From: Diprion similis
Lineage: Eukaryota > Arthropoda > Insecta > Hymenoptera > Diprionidae
Reading direction: 5' to 3'
Length of the DNA: 64,000 nt
Assembly: GCF_021155765.1 (NCBI RefSeq)
Contig: NC_060110.1
Span: 3,658,001-3,722,000 of the forward strand
Made by a program: the position numbers and the translations under genes. Shown piece after piece: positions 6,001 through 63,419 of this stretch. The first letter of the stretch is position 1, and each line of letters starts with the position of its first letter. The notes below the pieces were generated by a model, which made no database searches, was not told where the DNA came from, and worked only from the letters and a program-made list of their open reading frames with translations.

Positions 6001-6370
6001 TGTATACATAGTACACATACCTGTTCACCGTGCACATATGTCATACAATTAATGACATGGATATCTAACATAAGTTTTATTCTATTAATCTGGGATGAAA
6101 GGAGAAAGTTTTTTTTTCTTTCATTTTCTTCGGATTAAGACAAAAAAACTTGGACAAACCCGTTTGAATTTTTACTTGAATGATTGAGAAAATGGCGAAA
6201 TTTTTTGTTTTGATGTATAAAATATTACACTTTAATTTTCATACACAACGCAATTGCCTGGTTCATTGAGACACGAGAATAGTAAATACTGCAGGGAGAA
6301 GAATTTCTAGCTGTGTTTACTATACGGTACTTTACTATTTCCATTATTTACCATATACCGAAAATTACAT
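3031..6370. other. AT-rich non-coding stretch with diverged interspersed repeats
   Basis: No gene was recognised. Two diverged copies of an interspersed repeat (about 4130-4440 and 5230-5480) share a TTATTTCAAGACTGATTCCATGA-like core with a third copy near 21760-22060. Reading frames here are short and AT-driven. Confidence 0.45.
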
Positions 6371-6742
6371 TTTTACGGCATGGGCGTGGAAAAGTTCACT
6401 TTTCGTGGCAGTTTTCGTTCCGTAAAGTGACGCTTTATACGGCAGCGAACAAAGTTGCGGAATAAAGTCTTTATTCCGCAGTTTTGATGCGCAGTTCGAA
6501 GTGCGCATCCCAAACTGGCGAATAAAGTAGCTTCGTCGAACAGATCGCGACATAACCTCACTCTTCGTTTTGCTTTTCAATGCCCATACCGTAAAAAATA
6601 TTGTATGTCGCATGCCCGTAAACCGTTTTTTGGCTCGGATAATTTCAGTACTCGCTTCCGGCTCGCCTTCAGCTCGTCCTGAAATCTTTATCCCTGCCAA
6701 AAAAACAGGCGGTTTACGGTCATGCCACATAAATAGCTATTC
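6371..6742 (-). mobile_element. Composite foldback repeat, copy 2 (inverted)
   Basis: Reverse-complement copy of the repeat at 382-753, with the same two palindromic modules in the same order. The terminal CGGTTTACGGTCATGCCACA arm lies near 6711-6730 and the TAAATAGCTATT flank near 6730-6742. The conceptual frames of the two copies differ by scattered substitutions and small indels but keep the same central peptide string (for example RSYFIRQFGMRTSNCASK). This shows recent common ancestry rather than a functional gene. Confidence 0.7.
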
Positions 6743-12998: not shown

Positions 12999-13450
12999 TG
13001 ATTTCAAGATTACAAAGGTTTCAAAATATTTCAGGGATATCAAAAGATTTCAAACGGTTTCAAAGAATTTCGGATGTTTTGAGAAGATTTCAAAAGATTA
13101 CAAGGGATTTCAAACTATTTCAGAAAATTTCAAAACATTACAAGAGACTTCAAAAGATTTGCGGAGGATTTCAAAAGGTTCCAGGGATTTTTCAAAAGAT
13201 TTCAAACGATTTCAAAGAATTTCGGATGTTTCGAGAAGATTTCAAAAGATTACAAGGGACTTCAAGGAATTTCATAGGTTTTCAAATTATTTCAGGAAAT
13301 TTCAAAACATTACAAGACACTTCAAAGGGATTGCGGAGGATTTCAAAAGATTCCAGATGATTTCAGAAAATTTCAAGAGATTTCAAAGACTACAGATGAT
13401 TTCAGAAAATTTCAAAGAATTTCAAAAACTTCAAAAGATTTCACAAGATT
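12999..13450 (+). repeat. 10-bp-period TTCAAAAGAT satellite-like array
   Basis: Decamers of the type TTCAAAAGAT / TTCAAACGAT / TTCAAAGAAT recur head to tail with an almost strict 10-bp step for about 450 bp. A higher-order unit of roughly 170 bp is repeated: GGATGTTTTGAGAAGATTTC... recurs with GGATGTTTCGAGAAGATTTC..., each followed by a TTGCGGAGGATTTCAAAAG block. Long open frames (213 and 121 codons) run through it in more than one frame because the decamer contains no stop. They give a monotonous FQKISKDFKR-like pattern and are not taken as a gene. Confidence 0.8.
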
Positions 13451-13777
13451 TCCGGAAAAGTGTATATCTACCGGATTTCACCAGTGATTAACCCCTCGTG
13501 CCCAACTTTATTTATCAGGTTTAAAACGTTGACATTGAATAGTTCATTGAACGGGGGTAATAAGTCATTGTAACGAAACGAACACTGAAAAGATGTGATG
13601 TTAAAATTGGCCGGTATCGACTACTACAGAACAATTGTTGTGATCGATTTGGAAGTTTGTAATCAGAAGGTGTCAGATTGATACTAAATTATAGTGTATA
13701 GAAATGAGCACAAAAATTTGTCTCGCAGTGAACCGATGACTGTCACGAACGATTTGGTGATTTTAGTTTGCCTACAG

Positions 13778-47800: not shown

Positions 47801-48365
47801 ATAATATACATTTCGAATACTCTCATCTTTAAAGAATGAGTGCAGTCAGTTACAGTACGAATTCTGACCATTTTCTTTTTTCAAGTCTTATAAGAAAGTT
47901 CAGTTGCTGCAAAAGAAAATCGGAGCAGAGGTTTCGAGCTCTCTGCAGGCACCGTGCCTGCCGTCACTTTTAATATTTGTTGGTCGACGGATGTTCAAAA
48001 TATTAGTAGCAATGGTATATAGTACTATATAGTATCGTAGCATGGCTTTATTTATTTTTTTATCAACCTGTGTTGTCTCATTAAGACATTTATCAATGTT
48101 CAAACTTATCTCCAGGTGACTAAATCATTTTTCATCTATAAGTGGGTACTCGGGTACCCGCGTGCGCACATGAAGGTTCATTTATTGCAACTTGAAATAT
48201 AGAAACCAACGGTGTGGCAATATCGGCAATATATTTATGGAACACCATTTCGTAGTTTTGGAATAGAATTTTTTATAGACTATCGAATTTCCTTCGAAAT
48301 ATTGTACTTTTTGTAGATTATCATCATTTTTAATTTTCGTATGTAGATTCAAATTCTGCTAGATT
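44850..48365. other. Non-coding stretch, no gene seen
   Basis: AT-rich, with no exon-like sequence recognised on either strand. Reading frames near 46472 and 47900 are short and featureless. Confidence 0.5.
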
Positions 48366-48425
48366 CAGGGTGGCCACAAATTTTTACGAAAATAATTTCA
48401 TGACATCTCCAGGTTTTCCAGGTGT
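48366..48425 (+). mobile_element. Possible hAT-like terminus (truncated)
   Basis: CAGGGTGGCCACAAATTTTT followed by a CCAGGTTTTCCAGGT repeat. This combination is typical of non-autonomous hAT-type ends in insect genomes. No opposite end was found nearby, so it is probably a remnant. Confidence 0.3.
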
Positions 48426-48933
48426 GTATGAGAGAGATGCGACATTTAGCGATGGTTCGAAAATAGAATTTCATACTTTCCCATGTATCAATCTAAATCA
48501 AATTTTAAAATTGTCTCATCACAATTTTTTGTGGAAATTCGTACTCTTTTACCGCTCAGTCGGCTCTCGCGCCACACGCCCATGTGAACCCAGCCTTACG
48601 GATCTAGGGTATTTTGACGCCGTTGGTACACATCTTACTTAAATCCAGTCCAGTGCGAAAGAGAAACTTTTTTGGAGGAAAAAGCTGCAACTCTTATAAG
48701 GCAAACCATATTTACCCACACTACGCTGCACATACCTTCTTAGGCCCTGGAATATTATTATAGTTTAATCTGGGAATGCGAATAAAAAGCGAGATATAAA
48801 ATTCCCTATCTTTGGTGAAACATGAAAATCACTGAACCTGTAGTAGTTCATCCAGCGCTGCGAATTCACAGTTCACATCATAGGCGCCAGTGATTTCCAT
48901 TTTAGGAAATCTGCCGTCTGTACCTTCTTTAGT

Positions 48934-50464
48934 ATGCTGTACAAACCAGCCAAATCTCGATTAGGTAAAATCACAAAAACCGGGTTAAAGGCTGCAGTAG
49001 CAATAGAGTGTGTACTTTTTATGAGCAGCTTCTCAGCGTGGCAATTGTTGAAACACTCTAGAGGTGAGCAGCGAACTATATTTATACCTACATCTCCATC
49101 ATATTTTAGGTTATAAATTTCACATCCCGATTCCTCTTCAATTTTGAAAGCTATTTGTCTTCTTTAGTATAACTCTGAGTGGTAATACCCGCTAAAGTAA
49201 TTTCCCAAATACGTTACTTCGACTCTTTCCACCTGTAGATACCAAAACATCGTTCCCAAAGTAATCATCTGCATACTAATTTACACCTACACGCCCTTTA
49301 CTGGAACAAAGATATGCCTGCCCACATCACTTCATACGAAATTCGGTACTTATCTAATGTAGCTCAAATAATTAATAAGCGACTTTCGAAAAATTTCATA
49401 TTAATAAATTCCGTTCATTATTCCTCCCTCCATTGTTTAGCACAAACTTGCATGATAATGATTCCTTACCTGGATTATCAATGATTTTTGGTACGATAGT
49501 TGCAAAGTTTCATCGTTTACCGTTCTCTATTTTTTGCATCCCACTTTCCTTCTTAACCTTTTGACGACGTAGAAATGTCAGTTAAAATCGACCTTTTATT
49601 AGAGGTGAAATTTATAAATAAATTCAATGAATTTCTTACGTGGACTCCCCAACCTGACTGTTGGTCGACATATTGACCAGCCCTGCCGTTAAAAGGCTAA
49701 ATATCCATATAAAACATCACAGAGTGCTATGCGTTAATCAGAAATGCAGGATTATGTTCCAATTGATGCTTGAAATTACTTTAATCTCATGAACCCGATA
49801 ATTTAAGATGAATCTGTAGCTAGCTGCCATAATCAGCAGTTGAACGTGTTCATTTTGATTCAATTAACCTAATAAAGCCGAAATTAAAGTTTGCTAAGTA
49901 CTTTGCATCTCAGATATTATTATTAAAAATTATGCGTATACAACTGAACTGCATCATCTTAGTGGAACAAAGTCTAATACTTTCAGCTCTTAACACTTGC
50001 CGCTTCTTTAATCTTCATTAATTTAAGTTGTACAGTTTCTGTAAATTTGTTATTCTGCTTATGTATTGGATATGCCTGAAGATCTGAGCGATCAAGCTTG
50101 ACCCTGACTTCAAATTCACACTAATACTGAGTATGGGTCATGATATTATTTAGCCCTAAGTTCGCTTTGTTGTGCTCCAGCACATGTTAAATAATTTCAC
50201 AATATTTATCCATTTATAATTTATCACTGAATCTCAAACTCAGCGCCAATCTAGATTTTGATCAAGCTTGACCTATCAAACCTTTGGGTGCAAATGAATT
50301 TGCTGTTAAAATATGTTTTATTAGATTCCAGATTTTTCTGTCACAAATATTGTCCCTACATTTTGGACAAATATTATGCATTTGAAGAATATACCAGTCC
50401 TCAACTTGAGAACAGAATAGCAGACCAGAAGGTCTGGGAATACAGCGAGAAATTAACCAAATAA
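48934..50464 (+). CDS. CEBPZOS-like single-pass membrane microprotein
   Basis: Two exons, 48934-49063 and 50325-50464 (donor AGAG/GTGAGC, acceptor TTTTATTAG; phase 1), giving 89 aa. One hydrophobic segment (about residues 19-38, AAVAIECVLFMSSFSAW) follows a basic N-terminus (KSRLGKITKTGLK). The second exon encodes FFCHKYCPYILDKYY...DQKVWEYSEKL. The arrangement, length and the YCPYILDKYY / DQKVW positions fit the vertebrate CEBPZOS family (about 80 aa, mitochondrial, function poorly known). The assignment is from memory of the family, not a search. Its stop is only 13 nt before the next start codon, suggesting a shared mRNA with the UQCC3-like gene. The 1.26-kb intron carries a TTAA-flanked MITE-like element (49557-49696). 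Confidence 0.6.
49557..49696. mobile_element. piggyBac-like MITE in the CEBPZOS-like intron
   Basis: The left end is TTAA + CCTTTTGACGAC; the right end is GCCGTTAAAAGG + CTAA. The inverted ends CCTTTTRACGRC and the TTAA-type flanks fit a short piggyBac-like non-autonomous element. About 140 bp, no coding capacity. Confidence 0.4.
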
Positions 50465-50477
50465 TCATTCATTTTCC

Positions 50478-51527
50478 ATGGCGTTTGTCAAGGTGGTACT
50501 TATGCTGGCTGGTTCCTTTGGTTTCTCATACGCATTATTTGCACTTATAACTCCCAAAGATCACGAAATAAAGAAGGTAAATGTCTCATACGAGTTTTAA
50601 TTAATCCTTTCTTTACTTGGCTAATCAAAAATAATGACTAATAATATTCGAAATCCACTTTTAAAACAATTTCTTAGATTACTAAAAATCGTTGTAACTT
50701 TGGAAAGATTAACATTTTGAGAAAATTTCTTTTTTGCTATGCAACCAGAGCTGTTGTAAACCTAAAAAGCAGGAAAGATTGTTGAAATATCATAGAATGC
50801 AATGAAAAATTTGAAAGATCCTCTTTTGCAAATAATCTTACAATTTAATGAAATACTAGAGTAGATTCAGAAATGTTGTCGTCTAGCTCCCTGAAACCAA
50901 ATTTAATTTGAAATCATCACTCCATTACAGAGTCTAGTTAAAAATACTTGTGAAATTGCAAGGGAATAGTACATTTTAAAGATTTTCAGTCATCTGCAAC
51001 AATCGTGTGCTACATTTGACTCGAGTCACGATATTATAATACTGAAATACTTTGATATTGTTCTGAAATACGAAAACGGGATCTGCAACTCTAGGCATAT
51101 AATTCAAATTACGATCTCTCATTGAGAATTCTTTGATCAAGAATACTAATAAAAGTTGTGGTTGAAAACAAACCTTTGTAATAATTCATATTGATGCATG
51201 TGTATGTCCATTGGGTATCATATAAATTGAACAAACCTAATTTTGTTGTTACAATTATTTTATCCACATTGAAATAATCATTATAATAACTGAATGTTCA
51301 TGTATTATTTACTTGACAGTTTCTATAGTAACAAACAGAAATTCATATTTCTAACCAATGGATATTTTACGACTTTTGAAAATGAAAATTCCTGATTTCA
51401 GCAACTGGGCCATAGACCTGACCTTATTACCGAGACCCCTTTTTTCGAGTCACTGCGCAAAGCTACTTTGAAAAAGAGATCTATGAACACAGAGCAGAAG
51501 ACATTAGAATCCAGCGACAGTTCGTAA
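50478..51527 (+). CDS. UQCC3-like complex III assembly factor
   Basis: Two exons, 50478-50576 and 51402-51527 (donor AAG/GTAAAT, acceptor GATTTCAG, phase 0), giving 74 aa. An N-terminal membrane anchor (about 3-24: VKVVLMLAGSFGFSYALFAL) is followed by ITPKDHEIKKQLGHRPDL and a charged C-terminus. The hydrophobic YAL...TP...KK core resembles UQCC3, a small inner-membrane protein that helps assemble cytochrome bc1 and stabilise cytochrome b. It is shorter than the human protein (about 93 aa). Other small mitochondrial assembly factors share this layout, so the assignment is moderate. It starts 13 nt after the CEBPZOS-like stop and ends 49 nt before the TBCC start, with no polyadenylation signal in either gap. 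Confidence 0.55.
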
Positions 51528-51576
51528 ATACCAAAAATATATCAAGCGGCGTTGAATAATATCTCCTGTCACAGTA

Positions 51577-52605
51577 ATGGAACCATCTACCCTAATAGAG
51601 GGTAGCTTACCCGAACGAATAACCAAAAGAGATCGGGAGCGCAAAAACGTAATAGAGAAACGCAGAGAAGAGAGGCAGCAGCTTGCCGTGGAATCCGAAC
51701 AGTCTAGTTATTTCAAAGATGCATTCTACGCGTCCTGTAAAACGATTAAAGATTTACTAGACGATGCTTGTACAGCTTCACCATCCGTGCTTCCTGCCAT
51801 ATTTGACAAAGCAAACAAGGAGATACAGACATTGAAGAACTTTCTTTCCCAATCCAAAATGTATCTAAAGGTTTATGACATTCGCAGAGCACAGGAAAAC
51901 CTGCAATTACTTGAGATCGAGGCGGATGAATTGGAGTTGAAATTATTGCCGAAGAAAAAATTTGGATTTAAAAATCGTAGAGTATTGAAAAAACCGTCGG
52001 AAAAATGTCATGATGTCACTGACGGACTAAAGGATCTCAAAATATCAGACAGCATTGTAAATAACGCGACGAACCAAAACAACAAACTTTCAAGCAAATA
52101 TGGTGACAGTGCCTGTATGATAATGGGAAAGGTGGATGAGAAATTGGTTCTGGATGCGGAAAATGTGAACAAAAACGACATCTTACTCTCTGACCTATCA
52201 GGGTGCTTCATCAGGATATATGGGGCGCCCAGTACGTTACATATGGTCAACCTACAAAACTGTACAGTCTTAGTTGGGCCAGTTTCCTCCTCTGTATTTG
52301 CCGACAGATGTAACGCCTGTTCCCTTGCTTTTGCTTGTCAGCAACTTAGACTGCATACTTCCATGAACTGTGACGTTTATTGTCACGTTACAAGCAGAGC
52401 TATCATAGAAGACTGTTCGAAAATACGGTTTGCACCCTACAATTGGTCCTATGACGATCTTTCTATACATTTCAACTTGGCTGGGCTAGATCAAAAAATT
52501 AATAACTGGCAATTGGTGGATGACTTCAATTGGTTGTCGAACGAAAAACACTCGCCTAATTGGTCCGTCTTGGAACCGGAATTGAGAGTTAGGAAGTGGG
52601 ATTAG
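51577..52605 (+). CDS. TBCC: Tubulin-folding cofactor C
   Basis: One uninterrupted exon of 342 aa. The N-terminal region (about 1-120) is helical and charged (KRDRERKNVIEKRREERQQL), as in the TBCC spectrin-like domain. The C-terminal half is the C-CAP/TBCC beta-helix: GCFIRIYGAPSTLHMVNLQNC, then ACQQLRLHTS...VTSRAIIEDC, FAPYNWSY and NNWQLVDDFNWL. The arginine-finger position of the QQLR motif is present (R258), so GTPase-activating activity towards beta-tubulin in the cofactor C/D/E complex is expected. Length matches the family (about 345 aa). A possible acceptor (CTGTCACAG) just before the ATG could allow separate splicing, but the tight spacing downstream of the UQCC3-like cistron suggests co-transcription. 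Confidence 0.93.
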   Translation: MEPSTLIEGSLPERITKRDRERKNVIEKRREERQQLAVESEQSSYFKDAFYASCKTIKDLLDDACTASPSVLPAIFDKANKEIQTLKNFLSQSKMYLKVYDIRRAQENLQLLEIEADELELKLLPKKKFGFKNRRVLKKPSEKCHDVTDGLKDLKISDSIVNNATNQNNKLSSKYGDSACMIMGKVDEKLVLDAENVNKNDILLSDLSGCFIRIYGAPSTLHMVNLQNCTVLVGPVSSSVFADRCNACSLAFACQQLRLHTSMNCDVYCHVTSRAIIEDCSKIRFAPYNWSYDDLSIHFNLAGLDQKINNWQLVDDFNWLSNEKHSPNWSVLEPELRVRKWD

Positions 52606-52696: not shown

Positions 52697-52702
52697 AATA
52701 AA
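52697..52702 (+). terminator. Polyadenylation signal after TBCC
   Basis: AATAAA about 92 nt after the TBCC stop, in CTCAATAAATTATT. It is the first clear signal after the CEBPZOS-like gene, consistent with one 3' end for all three cistrons. Confidence 0.6.
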
Positions 52703-53635: not shown

Positions 53636-54541
53636 ATGGCAGCGCAACTACCAGCGAAGGCCGTGGGCCTAGTTAAAAGTATTTATTCAAAATTACATTG
53701 CTTTAGACATAATCTATTCATTATATCAACGAATCGTTTGATGCACCAGCAAGCCAACACAGTCGTGTGCGATCGGTGATCACAACCTTACATAACATTG
53801 GTCCAACATACATCCAGTTTCACACTGTTCGAGATTCATTTGACAATCGGTAGAATATTTTCGTTGTTCGTATTAAAAAGCGAACGTTTGTTGTCATGTC
53901 ATGATTTATTTATACCAGAAATTCATTTACTTCTTGGCTCAAAAGATGTATATAAGGTTGGCATTACACCTCGAGAGGACGTCAAAAAGTTGTCGCAATT
54001 CAGAGCATTTCCTTTTTGACTGAAACTTGTCGTGTGATTATTACATGTACCAAATACCGATACTCTGACAGATGGCTTAAAAAAATTTCATAGCACTTGT
54101 ACAACGCTTACCGTTAGCCGATATAAGAAAAAAAACAAAAGCTCCATAACTGACTTCAGTATGACACTACACGTTACGTTTGTAACTTACTTTTGTACAG
54201 TTTTTTCATGTTGAAGTTAAATCTTTAGAACTTCATTTTACATGCTTTAATATAATCCCATTATTTCTCTTTTTGTGACAGCTGGTCTGGTCTTGGCAAA
54301 GCCCAAACTGCAGATTTTCAGACAATATGCCATGGTCGAGTTAACGCCACCAAAATTATCCGATATTCCTGCTATTCGTTCCGGAATTGCAAAACTTTTG
54401 TCGAGCGCTAAGAACGGCAGTTACCGTAATCTGACTGTTAGAGAAGCGTGGCTGAACACTCTTGTTGGAATCGAAGTCCTCTGCTGGTTCTATATTGGTG
54501 AAGTTATTGGAAAACGTCACCTTGTCGGCTACAAAGTTTAA
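53636..54541 (+). CDS. ATPsynG: ATP synthase subunit g, mitochondrial
   Basis: Two exons, 53636-53678 and 54282-54541 (donor AAAA/GTATTT, acceptor TTTTTGTGACAG, phase 1), giving 100 aa. The product starts MAAQLPAKAVGLVK and continues LAKPKLQIFRQYAMVELTPP, ending with the membrane segment LVGIEVLCWFYIGEVIGKRH, which carries the GxxxG-type ridge region used in dimer contacts. Length and order match the ATP synthase g family (about 100 aa). It is a peripheral-stalk-associated subunit of the F1Fo complex in the inner membrane, needed for dimerisation of the enzyme. The 603-nt intron has no nested feature. Confidence 0.9.
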
Positions 54542-55987: not shown

Positions 55988-57208
55988 ATGGCATCGGTCG
56001 TAGCACGTGGTAAGAGCTGGAAAGAGCACAACCGTCTACACAAGGAACAACGCAAGAAGTGGAGAGAAGAGAGACTATTAAAAAAGGTGAAGAAAGAAGA
56101 GAGCGAAAATCTTGCCGAAGAGGTTAAAAAGTCAAACGAGTCTGAGAAAATATTGACAAAAAACGTATCCACCGTGAGTATCGCGGTGCCTGGTTCGATT
56201 CTGGATAACGCTCAGTCGCCAGAATTGAGAACGTATTTGGCAGGCCAGATTGCGAGAGCAGCATGCATATATAAAATTGATGAAGTGATCGTGTTTGACG
56301 ATATGGGAGAAGTCTTAGAGGAAGAAAAAAAGAAACTGAGACACGATGAAACATTCGGGGAAGTCAGAGTCGGATGTCTGCAGCTTGCAAGAATATTGCA
56401 ATATCTAGAGTGTCCGCAATATCTGCGTAAATATTTCTTCCCCCTACATAAAGACCTCCAGTACGCAGGAGTTCTGAATCCTTTGGATGCTCCGCATCAC
56501 CTAAGACAACAGGATGAGTCTGTGTTTCGTGAAGGCATCGTCACTAACAAACCTATAAAAGTTGGAAGAGGGTCCCAAGTCAACGTTGGACTGCTTAACG
56601 ACGTCACAATTGACAAAGTTCTGGCGTCAGGTCTTAGGGTCACTGTTAAAATACCTGCGGAACAAAAAAACCCCAAAAAATTAAAAGGTATCGTTGTGCC
56701 TCCAAGTATGCCGAGAGCACACACCGGCATTTACTGGGGTTATAGTGTCAGAATAGCAAACAACTTGACACAAGTAATCACAGATAGTCCGTACAAGGAA
56801 GGTTACGATTTGACTATCGGAACTTCGGACAAAGGAACTTCTGTAGATGATATCGCGTCAAATAGTCTCGCGTACAATCATGTTCTCATTGTTTTTGGTG
56901 GCTTGACTGGGTTGGAAGCAGCCTTGGAAGCCGACCCCCTCTTGAATGAAGACGATCCATCTATACTTTTCGACAAGTACTTGAACGTCTGTCCGGAGCA
57001 AGGGTCCAGAACAATAAGAACTGAGGAAGCTGTTTTATTATCACTGGGCGAATTGAGGAATAAATTAATGCCCAAACATCCCCCGTTGGAAAATCCTCAA
57101 TTTCAAAATGACCCTCAAGCGGGCGAGAATAATTTAACAACAAGTAAAAAAATGAAGACAGAAAATCCAACAGTGTACAGCTCCGATTCCAGTGATTCAT
57201 CCGGCTGA
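55988..57208 (+). CDS. SPOUT1: SPOUT-domain RNA methyltransferase (SPOUT1/CENP-32/C9orf114 family)
   Basis: A single 406-aa exon beginning MASVVARGKSWKEHNR. A charged, lysine/glutamate-rich N-terminus (about 1-55) is followed by the signature SIAVPGSILDNAQSPELRTY and GQIARA. The central insert includes LQLARILQYLECPQYLRK and NPLDAPHH. The C-terminal SAM-binding knot region includes YWGYSVRIAN, YDLTIGTSDKGT, VFGGLTGLEAAL and CPEQGSRTIRTEEAVLLSL. These match the SPOUT1 family. Known role: predicted m3U methyltransferase that also supports centrosome-spindle attachment. The acidic, serine-rich tail (SSDSSDSSG) lengthens it relative to the human protein (376 aa). A consensus donor (CAG/GTGAGA) lies 3 nt after the stop, pointing to a downstream exon on the same transcript. 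Confidence 0.92.
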   Translation: MASVVARGKSWKEHNRLHKEQRKKWREERLLKKVKKEESENLAEEVKKSNESEKILTKNVSTVSIAVPGSILDNAQSPELRTYLAGQIARAACIYKIDEVIVFDDMGEVLEEEKKKLRHDETFGEVRVGCLQLARILQYLECPQYLRKYFFPLHKDLQYAGVLNPLDAPHHLRQQDESVFREGIVTNKPIKVGRGSQVNVGLLNDVTIDKVLASGLRVTVKIPAEQKNPKKLKGIVVPPSMPRAHTGIYWGYSVRIANNLTQVITDSPYKEGYDLTIGTSDKGTSVDDIASNSLAYNHVLIVFGGLTGLEAALEADPLLNEDDPSILFDKYLNVCPEQGSRTIRTEEAVLLSLGELRNKLMPKHPPLENPQFQNDPQAGENNLTTSKKMKTENPTVYSSDSSDSSG

Positions 57209-57619: not shown

Positions 57620-59812
57620 CTAACGCTTGTCCAACACAGCGGTTACTGTTTCCTTCAAAGATGCCATCACTTTGGTAGGATTTTCAGCACCTGTCACTGC
57701 AGTCCCAGAAACTATCATATTAGCACCAGCCTGAAATGTGGAAATAGTCTTTCTATAATGACTTAATTAAACTTTCATGAGGATAGAAAAACCGATTATT
57801 GGCATCAATTTTTGGCTGCTTTGGTCTTCCAAATAGTTTTCTATCACATAATTAGCTTTATGCAACAAAAGTTTTATGTGACACAAATGGAATGTTCGGT
57901 ATACTGAGGCAAGAATGTTTCAGATATAGTTTTTCTACTTCAATAAAACACAAAATTATACGGGTACTGTAACATAAGTAGAACAAAGCCCTTAATACCA
58001 ATAAGTAGAATTATGTTGGAATTTGTTCAATCATTTCGATACTTTCGAAAGGTTTTTCTCATCATATTTGCTCATTTTTCTAGATTTGTAACAACTCGAT
58101 CGTACAGAATACCAAAATTATTGCTATTACAATCGAGTGCCTACTCAGGCAATAGGTATTTAAAAATGTTCAGCAAACAATTTTTCTAATTTTTCAAAAT
58201 GGGTCTGAACGGAAATTATTACTTCCTCCCCATCCATGGAAACGATGATGGATGGAACAAGCTGATATACTAGTATATGTTGCTTGTCATGATCCGGGTT
58301 TTATATTCAGAATGAACATTAGAAATTACCTCTGCACAGGAGTGTATGGTGTTTAGCCCAACTCCTCCATCCACTTCAATGTCCAAAGTGGGATAATTTT
58401 TTCGGAGCCATCGAACTTTATTCATCATCGGTTCCATAAATTTTTGACCACCAAAACCAGGCTCGACAGTCATGATAAGGACCATATCTGCCAGGTCTAT
58501 GTAATCGATCACAATGTCTGCTGGAGTTCCAGGTTTCAGAGCTACCCCCACCTTTACAACATAAATTGTCAGTTTCCGTTAGCATTCCTCAAATTAAATT
58601 TTTCTTGTACAATTAGTTAATTCATAAGTCAAGATTCTTTATGCTGAAATCCAAAGAAATTCTAGTTGAAGTAGTGAGAGAAAAAGCACGCTGCATAGCT
58701 AAGCAACACAGTATCAAGTGCTTGGTTTTCAGTTGATTGTTTTGGGTTAATTATACAATATTACAGAGGTATAGAAAACTTCGCGTTAATTGTCACTTTT
58801 CAGTTTTGTTTCACTAAGTTAAAGGTGTGTCAACGATATAATGAATAGATGTCACCGCTTCATATTTTTGTTCTTAGTGTGGGTATAAGGTATGTGAATC
58901 TTCTTGGATTTAATACTTAGGTTTGCCATGATATTATTATTTTATTAATTAAATTTATCCTTCGATTACATTATTAGTTACTAATTATTTTTGTAATGTG
59001 TACTTTGAAAGATTCAACAAGAAATTATTTTTGTGATGGGTAGTCGACAATTCAACTAACAGTTACTTTTGTTATTTATACATATATGCTGAAAATTAAA
59101 GCGATCCTCTCGTTAAAACAGATTAATCTTGCAAGAACTAAAAAGTCAAAAGAATAATTGATTGAATTTTTCCAATTACTTATTACATTTCATTGGCAAT
59201 TATTTTATTTTTTTTCGATTCTGAAAATATTACTTGAATGCATACGGAAGCAAACTTGTACTTTGTCAAAATTATAACATTTTATACTTCATTGCATGCT
59301 TTATTGAAGTAATAACACATACCTTCATTCCTGCCTCTTTAACTTTTCTACAAACTGAGGGTACGTCAATAACAGGTTCAACGTGAAAAGTGTATTGATC
59401 TACACCGGCATCTGACATTGGTAAAATCCACTGGAAAGTAATAAAATTTTATAGAAGCTGAAAGATAAGTGATGTCGAGTGCAATGAACGGTTTTCATGA
59501 AATGGTAATTGTTCAACTCTCATGCAATTTTTTTTTTTTTTTTTAATTTTTTACACAGTTTGAAGCTCGAGTTACCTTTTCGGGTTCTGAAACCATCATA
59601 TGGGTCTCAAAGAATGCGTTTTTTATTTTATTTCGTAAACATTTAACCAACGGATGACCAAATGTGAGGTTAGGAACAAAATGACCATCCATTACATCCA
59701 GATGCAGATAATCCGCACCGCTATCCAACAAACGTTGAGATTCGGAGTATAAATTCGCCAAATCCGCATTTAAGATAGATGGGCCAATTTTCGCGGTTAC
59801 AATCTTAGCCAT
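57620..59812 (-). CDS. Rpe: Ribulose-phosphate 3-epimerase
   Basis: Four minus-strand exons in transcript order: 59812-59576, 59430-59323, 58551-58330 and 57730-57620, all GT-AG, phase 0, giving 225 aa (human 228). TIM-barrel enzyme of the pentose phosphate pathway interconverting ribulose-5-phosphate and xylulose-5-phosphate in the cytosol. The metal and catalytic residues are in place: H37 and D39 in [15 protein letters not shown]71 in ETHMMV and D176 in [10 protein letters not shown]. The loop [14 protein letters not shown] and the phosphate-binding [10 protein letters not shown] motif (last exon) are intact. The third exon begins with valine (GTG) after the acceptor TTGTAAAG and must not be read as a start. 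ATTAAA signals on the minus strand lie at about 57523-57528 and 57495-57500, inside the SPOUT1-unit 3' region. Confidence 0.95.
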
Positions 59813-61671: not shown

Positions 61672-63419
61672 ATGAAGATGCTGGCAAAGCGCATGTTCCC
61701 AAGTTTGATTACTTGCAGTTCTAAGGCTGCTGGCATCTTAGCACCTTTAATTATTCCTCCTGCACATATTGCTGCACTTTACTATTTCTGGACAGAATTT
61801 TCACGAGATGTCGACAGGCGTCATTGCTCCTGTTCTTGTTGGGACACCGTATTCAAGGGTAAGAAATCATAAAGATTGTTCTTGGTCATGGCTCATGCAT
61901 GTTTTACTTTGACTATAGAAATACACATCTCATTTGTTAAGACTTCAAATAACGAATAGATGTAATCTCTAATTATTCCCATCTTTTTGCATAAATATCT
62001 GTTGTTCGATAAATGTAAAACAAATCAGGTTATTTTGGTCAACCTGTAGTAGAAAAGTCTTTACATTCCTCACCAATTCATGATATAATTATTTTGAAAT
62101 TTCAAACACTTCTGAAATCCTTCAGCCGATATGTATTTCTTTGTTTTAATTTTTCTTTTCAGGCTCCTATGAATCTGGTGTTGCATCTTATAAGCATATG
62201 TATTTTAACGCCACTGCTAATACCATAAAAATATGGTTTATGATAGTAATTGGTATAATTACATTTTACGAAAGTGTAAAAGATTTAGCATGGCTAGCTA
62301 TGCAATGTCGTCTGAGATTTAGAATGTTGATACTTTTTGGGACTGCAGTGTTTTCTCATTACTATTCATGGTGGGTGTACATAAATTATTGGAATGACGA
62401 GTTTTATTCCCAGTGGTATCATCAATTGTTTTTCACTGCTACCGAATTATTGTCGACAATTCTGGTCGTTCATTTGGCTGATGCAAAAAATCCAATTACA
62501 CATAGAAAAGCATTTGGCATCGCTGCTATTGCAATCATGCATATTTTAGCTGGTAGTTGGGACCAGTTCATTACCAATGTTGTTAGAGGAGAGGGATATG
62601 CCCATCAGGTAAATAAAAATCTCATCTATCTTTGATAACTTTTGTATTCAATGTTAAGAAAAATGTCTTACTAATTATTGTAAATTAAAAAGATTTATCA
62701 ACTCACAATCGTATAAAAAAATTAGTTATATCAATTTAAAATAAACTTGGTCTCGGATTAACATTACAGAGTGAATTAATTCTAGATGCAAAGCAAAAGG
62801 ATCTATAGATTGCATCTCAAAATATCCAAAGTGCCATTTGTATGGCATATGCATTTGTTCATATTTGAAAATATTCAGCTAAAACCAAAGTTAACAAGCA
62901 AAGTATCTTTGTGCTTAACGAAAATCTGAAAACTGTGACTTTACAAAAAATTTAAGAAATTCTATGGGACTTGATTTGATAAATTTATGATATTTTTGAA
63001 TATTTTCCCTGTTTGGTGAAATTATTTACTTACATTTGATAAATCGTGTTTCATTATACGTAATACATAATCAGCTTATTCAATTCATAGAAAATGATTT
63101 TTAGTCAAGGAAAAATCTGAATTACGCTCCAAAACACCTGCGATTCTCAAGCAATCTCATTCACCTAGGCGATAGACATACTTTTCAAGCTTTGTTACAG
63201 TGCATTGTGGAGGTAAATGATTCATATAATTAACAGGTAATTCGAGATCTGGGATTCATGATTCCTGATATTCTCCATGTTGCCATCCCTCTATGGTCTG
63301 TAGAATGGCATAAACCCTGTGGCCTACCTGGAGCTGAATCCAACCAGAATATCAGACGTGATCTCACAATTATTTCAGTACTGGTTATACTCGGATTGTG
63401 CTTTTGTGCTGCCCTGTGA
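61672..63419 (+). CDS. Multi-pass membrane protein of unknown function
   Basis: Three exons, 61672-61858, 62163-62608 and 63237-63419 (donors AAGG/GTAAGA and CAG/GTAAAT), giving 271 aa. About six hydrophobic segments are visible: residues about 20-42, IKIWFMIVIGIITF, MLILFGTAVFSHYYSWWVY, LFFTATELLSTILVVHLA, FGIAAIAIMHILAG and a C-terminal LTIISVLVILGLCFCAAL. A cysteine-rich loop DVDRRHCSCSCWDTVFKG follows segment 1. Polar or charged residues near the membrane (NYWND, SWDQFITNV, RDLGFMIPD) look like a conserved, constrained family. I do not recognise a named family. It could be a channel, transporter or scramblase-like protein, but nothing in the sequence decides this. Intron phases and codon quality support a real gene. 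Confidence 0.8.

Follow-up and report, generated by a model that had tools for sequence, protein, structure and literature searches.

Closely spaced CEBPZOS-like, UQCC3-like, and TBCC reading frames in Diprion similis may share a tricistronic mRNA

Three open reading frames (cistrons 1 to 3) lie on the + strand between positions 48934 and 52605 of a 64,000-nucleotide stretch of Diprion similis contig NC_060110.1 (hereafter, the window; all positions are in window numbering). The initial annotation described them as genes for a CEBPZOS-like microprotein, a UQCC3-like assembly factor, and TBCC, separated by stop-to-ATG gaps of 13 and 49 nt, and proposed that they share one mRNA. The coordinates bore out the strand, the order, and both gap lengths (Table 1). 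Cistrons 1 and 2 encode products of 89 and 74 amino acid residues, respectively, each from two exons, and TBCC is encoded in one exon.

Table 1. Features of the CEBPZOS-like/UQCC3-like/TBCC locus
Feature	Position	Strand	Remarks
Cistron 1 (CEBPZOS-like), coding exon 1	48934..49063	+	Start context ttagtATGc
Intron 1, GT...AG, within cistron 1	49064..50324	+	1261 nt; splice sites predicted from frame and alignment
Cistron 1, coding exon 2 with stop	50325..50464	+	Tandem acceptor 7 nt downstream would give exon start 50332
Out-of-frame ORF of 14 codons within cistron 1	50376..50420	+	Closes 5' of the cistron-2 start
Gap 1	50465..50477	+	13 nt; contains no AG and no ATG
Cistron 2 (UQCC3-like), coding exon 1	50478..50576	+	Start context tttccATGg; AATAAA at 50567
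Intron 2, GT...AG, within cistron 2	50577..51401	+	825 nt; AATAAA at 51148
Cistron 2, coding exon 2 with stop	51402..51527	+	Stop at 51525-51527
Gap 2	51528..51576	+	49 nt; contains no ATG; acceptor-like site ends at 51574
Cistron 3 (TBCC)	51577..52605	+	Unbroken, 342 aa; start context acagtaATGg
Putative poly(A) signal for the complete unit	52697..52702	+	First AATAAA 3' of TBCC

Of the three names in the initial annotation, that of TBCC was confirmed, and those of the two small ORFs are retained as likenesses. TBCC is a tubulin factor that works in the TBC/ARL2 machine, and the identity of cistron 3 can be regarded as firm: the product matched the Pfam families PF07986 (1.3e-38; 132 bits, cut-off 24.8) and PF16752 (6.7e-29; 101 bits, cut-off 27), and a PDB search returned a chain named 'Tubulin-specific chaperone C' at 8.4e-69. 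Searches for TBCC relatives gave 2 pattern matches in viral contigs and 39 in bacterial and archaeal genomes, none of which was confirmed, as expected for an animal gene. Cistron 2 is probably UQCC3-like. Residues 4-35 matched the Pfam UQCC3 family (PF15141) with an E value of 0.0013, and the score of 19 bits is below the cut-off of 33.6; thus, we use the name in its '-like' form only. The alignment with human UQCC3 scored 54, and the maximum of 2000 shuffles was 45. In the case of cistron 1, no Pfam family was found at E values up to 1, and the CEBPZOS-like label is suggested by the alignment of residues 10-81 (of 89) with human CEBPZOS, which scored 63 (maximum of 2000 shuffles, 46). Both human query sequences may be approximate. 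When each small protein was compared with the other human query, the scores did not stand out (equalled or exceeded in 1722 and 281 of 2000 shuffles). Both alignments need the splice joins for the frame to be open throughout.

The best 19-residue hydropathy was 1.55 for cistron 1 and 2.11 for cistron 2, which makes the latter the likelier of the two to have a membrane span. Codon statistics are weak here, and the small ORFs are not proven by them: 33, 5, and 11 of 155 null ORFs scored at least as high as cistron 1, cistron 2, and TBCC, respectively. In the PDB search, cistron 2 gave only designed repeat proteins, matched via many weak repeats, and cistron 1 gave one chain (E value of 0.24); we consider none of these relatives credible. 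Some Drosophila gene numbers considered as possible orthologues were also set aside, as a literature look-up tied none of them to these genes. Human CEBPZOS is tabulated among little-known mitochondrial proteins and assigned to the intermembrane space (PMC7066081, PMC5404111).

The end of cistron 1 and the start of cistron 2 are on the same exon (50325-50576), and the end of cistron 2 is on the same exon as the whole of TBCC (51402-52605). Thus, were cistron 2 or TBCC to have an mRNA of its own, its promoter would have to be within an intron or within the preceding ORF. The spacing is also unusual under a simple chance model, in which about nine gene starts (a guessed number) are placed at random on the two strands of 64 kb: the probability of a gene start within 13 nt is about 0.0009, and that within 49 nt is about 0.003.

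The initial annotation had also argued from the first AATAAA being located after TBCC. This is incorrect; five earlier AATAAA sites exist, at 49403, 49617, and 49871 (intron 1), 50567 (cistron-2 coding sequence), and 51148 (intron 2), before the one at 52697. Neither gap contains AATAAA or ATTAAA. The GT/TG count 3' of the signal was 11 for the site at 51148 in intron 2 and 2 for that at 52697, which counts against one mRNA. We consider exon sharing a stronger argument for one mRNA than the placement of AATAAA.

Per 300 nt, the CpG count peaked at 11 within the final 1 kb of intron 1 and at 7 within intron 2, compared with a window median of 10. In the 1 kb upstream of cistron 1, the maximum was 14, and the corresponding values for three other genes in the window were 28 (WDR26-like), 24 (ATP synthase g-like), and 17 (SPOUT1-like). 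The Pfam matches of these three genes are WD40, ATP-synt_G, and Methyltrn_RNA_3, respectively; the names WDR26 and SPOUT1 are presumed, and the anchor for the ATP synthase g gene (54242) is the ATG just 5' of its first recognised exon rather than its start codon. The stretch 50000-51399, picked after the CpG profile had been viewed, ranked 20th of 1252 overlapping windows for a low CpG ratio; other stretches of the window are equally low, so that this ranking is a hint only. Intron 1 contains a TATA word (49613) and Inr words (49578 and 49850), which count against one mRNA, and the region 5' of cistron 1 (48000-48933) contains Inr words and no TATA word. These core-promoter words are consensus words with many chance matches. 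A bacterial promoter scan is uninformative for animal DNA. The final 300 nt of each intron contain seven ATGs, which would burden any unspliced internal leader. The proposal of a shared mRNA, predicted from the sequence, is partly supported: it is the most plausible reading of the shared exons, the close spacing of the ORFs, and the low CpG content of the introns, and its poly(A) argument fails.

We consider a tricistronic mRNA, read via leaky scanning plus reinitiation, to be the best explanation of the locus and a probable one. An alternative that we regard as unlikely is that the small ORFs share an mRNA and that most TBCC is translated from a second mRNA whose promoter is internal, either within intron 2 or within exon 2 of cistron 2, the spanning mRNA being a minor product. 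According to FlyBase, the 3' coding regions of such loci frequently have their own alternative downstream promoter (PMC4528330). At our locus, a CpG bump (16 per 300 nt) is located across the TBCC start at 51451-51750, which counts against one mRNA; however, it may stem from the TBCC coding sequence itself. A transcript starting at 51383-51482 would have a leader with one ATG (51483), opening an ORF of 14 codons. Against this alternative, intron 2 is poor in CpG (a maximum of 7 per 300 nt against the median of 10), and its final 300 nt contain seven ATGs.

The splice sites themselves offer another way to reach TBCC. When 186 AGs were ranked with a simple matrix, an acceptor-like site 2 nt 5' of the TBCC ATG ranked 15th, better than the two modelled acceptors (24th and 26th). 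If donor 1 were joined to this site, an in-frame fusion of cistron 1 and TBCC would result, and if donor 2 were used, a stop would overlap the TBCC ATG. It is improbable, in our estimation, that alternative splicing of this kind, by which the small ORFs would be skipped, explains the locus; acceptor-like sites are frequent by chance, and 14 other AGs outscore this one. The top-ranked AG of the 186 is the downstream member of the tandem acceptors at 50325 and 50332, and its use would shift the reading frame and produce a different cistron-1 tail; the modelled acceptor at 50325 ranked 24th, and its frame is that which matches human CEBPZOS. Both the tandem acceptor and the acceptor-like site before TBCC may be taken as leads.

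It is very improbable that the small ORFs are not genes and that the stretch only forms the 5' UTR and flanking DNA of TBCC. A Pfam match is lacking for cistron 1, whose codon score is not distinct, and the match of cistron 2 is below the threshold; however, each alignment with the human protein exceeded all 2000 shuffles and needs the splice joins, and the weak PF15141 match is located where it would be expected. Least probable of all is an operon whose transcripts are separated by trans-splicing of a spliced leader, in the manner of nematodes and tunicates: the same-strand genes are close together and an acceptor-like site precedes the TBCC ATG, but an acceptor is not found before each downstream ORF, as gap 1 lacks AG and the AG nearest to the cistron-2 ATG ends 28 nt upstream, within cistron 1, in a purine-rich stretch, and spliced leaders are not known from insects.

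Returning to the tricistronic mRNA, we examined how its second and third cistrons could be translated. The spliced mRNA contains six AUGs from the start of cistron 1 to just 5' of TBCC, where the ATG density of both introns and the stretch 3' of TBCC would predict 10.7. Five of the six share the frame of cistron 1 or 2, and the sixth (50376) is out of frame. In synonymous shuffles, the observed numbers of out-of-frame ATGs, 1 and 0, compared with 2.3 and 0.5, respectively; thus, the shortage is modest. If the mRNA begins upstream of both, additional AUGs at 48776 and 48822 precede cistron 1. The start context is intermediate in cistron 1 (A at -3, C at +4) and weak in cistron 2 (T at -3, G at +4), and TBCC, with G at both positions, has the best start of the three by the usual context rule. 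With 89 and 74 codons, the two small ORFs are long by the standards of reinitiation; this length, the intermediate context of cistron 1, the modest shortage of out-of-frame ATGs, and the possible additional AUGs 5' of cistron 1 count against the tricistronic reading. No sign of a structured IRES was seen at the starts of cistron 2 and TBCC, where the predicted folds were no stronger than those of shuffled sequences (z = -0.33 and +1.20, respectively). In the case of the cistron-1 leader, z was -1.73, and 9 of 200 shuffles folded equally well. Rfam (at the gathering threshold) and ARAGORN gave no matches in the window.

Leaky scanning with some reinitiation after the short ORFs would be the likeliest translation route. 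The order, gaps, shared exons, GT-AG sites, and AUG census were read from the sequence, and from them we infer the following course of transcription, splicing, and translation. A single promoter 5' of 48934 would give one pre-mRNA ending near 52.7 kb, and removal of the two introns would give the tricistronic mRNA encoding the CEBPZOS-like, UQCC3-like, and TBCC proteins. Of the ribosomes scanning from the cap, a part would initiate at cistron 1 and a part would bypass its intermediate AUG; some of the latter may also bypass the weak AUG of cistron 2, and some ribosomes may resume scanning after having translated a short ORF. TBCC, with its better start context, would then be reached at a reduced rate, and the small ORFs would serve both as products and as a brake on TBCC. 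That the locus is an old, conserved three-gene unit, in which the output of TBCC is linked in this way to two mitochondrial microproteins, is a speculative extension that we consider doubtful.

Polycistronic loci are known in Drosophila. In 2015, the FlyBase catalogue comprised 159 dicistronic pairs, seven tricistronic sets, and two tetracistronic sets, and loci making only polycistronic transcripts had gaps of -34 to 319 nt (PMC4528330); the distances of 13 and 49 nt found here fall within this range. The Drosophila loci described there also resemble ours in their same-strand ORFs, over-representation of small proteins, and mixed functions (PMC4528330). However, they are backed by cDNA, RNA-Seq, and start-site data, whereas the shared mRNA here is a prediction from genomic DNA, and sets of three cistrons are rare even in Drosophila, with seven cases (PMC4528330).

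A further likeness is with Drosophila sloth1/sloth2, two complex III-related microproteins encoded in one mRNA with a 5-nt gap, for which a reporter assay supported leaky scanning (PMC9681215). Both loci have adjacent frames for small microproteins that are, or in our case are predicted to be, mitochondrial and single-span, a gap of a few nucleotides, and a link to complex III assembly, which in our case is by name only (UQCC3-like). On the other hand, sloth1 and sloth2 are two cistrons and likely paralogues, whereas we found three unlike ORFs with wider gaps; leaky scanning is reporter-backed there and proposed here; and, among human genes, sloth1 and sloth2 match SMIM4 and C12orf73 and neither UQCC3 nor CEBPZOS (PMC9681215). 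In the bicistronic mRNAs of green algae, the ORFs are likewise closely spaced and the downstream one is preceded by few AUGs, features which the authors of that study link to leaky scanning, but these mRNAs belong to an unrelated lineage and carry two ORFs, and the first start context at our locus is intermediate (PMC11291117).

Given the fly catalogue and the sloth1/sloth2 precedent, this kind of arrangement is already known. In the open-access literature searched, we found no paper on the CEBPZOS/UQCC3/TBCC trio; TBCC and the word 'polycistronic' occur together in a paper on reconstituted tubulin cofactors (PMC4574351). The fly orthologues may already be annotated as polycistronic, for example, in the supplementary list of FlyBase. 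If real, the locus would be an addition to the few tricistronic units on record (seven fly sets in 2015; PMC4528330), and it would allow one to study, in a natural setting, how a third cistron is reached by ribosomes when ORFs of 89 and 74 codons precede it. The locus is also a warning for annotation, as its two small ORFs could easily be discarded as the 5' UTR of TBCC, or fused.

Several other features of the window were recorded. Downstream of TBCC, its neighbour on the + strand is the gene for ATP synthase g (54251-54541; PF04718, 5.2e-27), so that a further small mitochondrial protein is encoded about 1.6 kb 3' of TBCC. It is followed by genes for an RNA methyltransferase (55988-57208, + strand; PF02598, 1.8e-106) and a ribulose-phosphate 3-epimerase (58270-58578, - strand; PF00834, 1.6e-22). 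A 372-base sequence is present as inverted copies at 382-753 and 6370-6741, which are 96% identical and each have an open frame of more than 100 codons; the open frame 387-869 at one copy had no Pfam match, and the copies are probably a mobile element or its remnant. An open frame of 161 codons at 62150-62635 (+ strand), with many hydrophobic stretches and no Pfam match, is possibly an exon of a membrane protein. An array of about 45 degenerate copies of a unit of about 10 bases (AAGATTTCAA) occupies 13006-13452, inside open frames of 229 and 137 codons.
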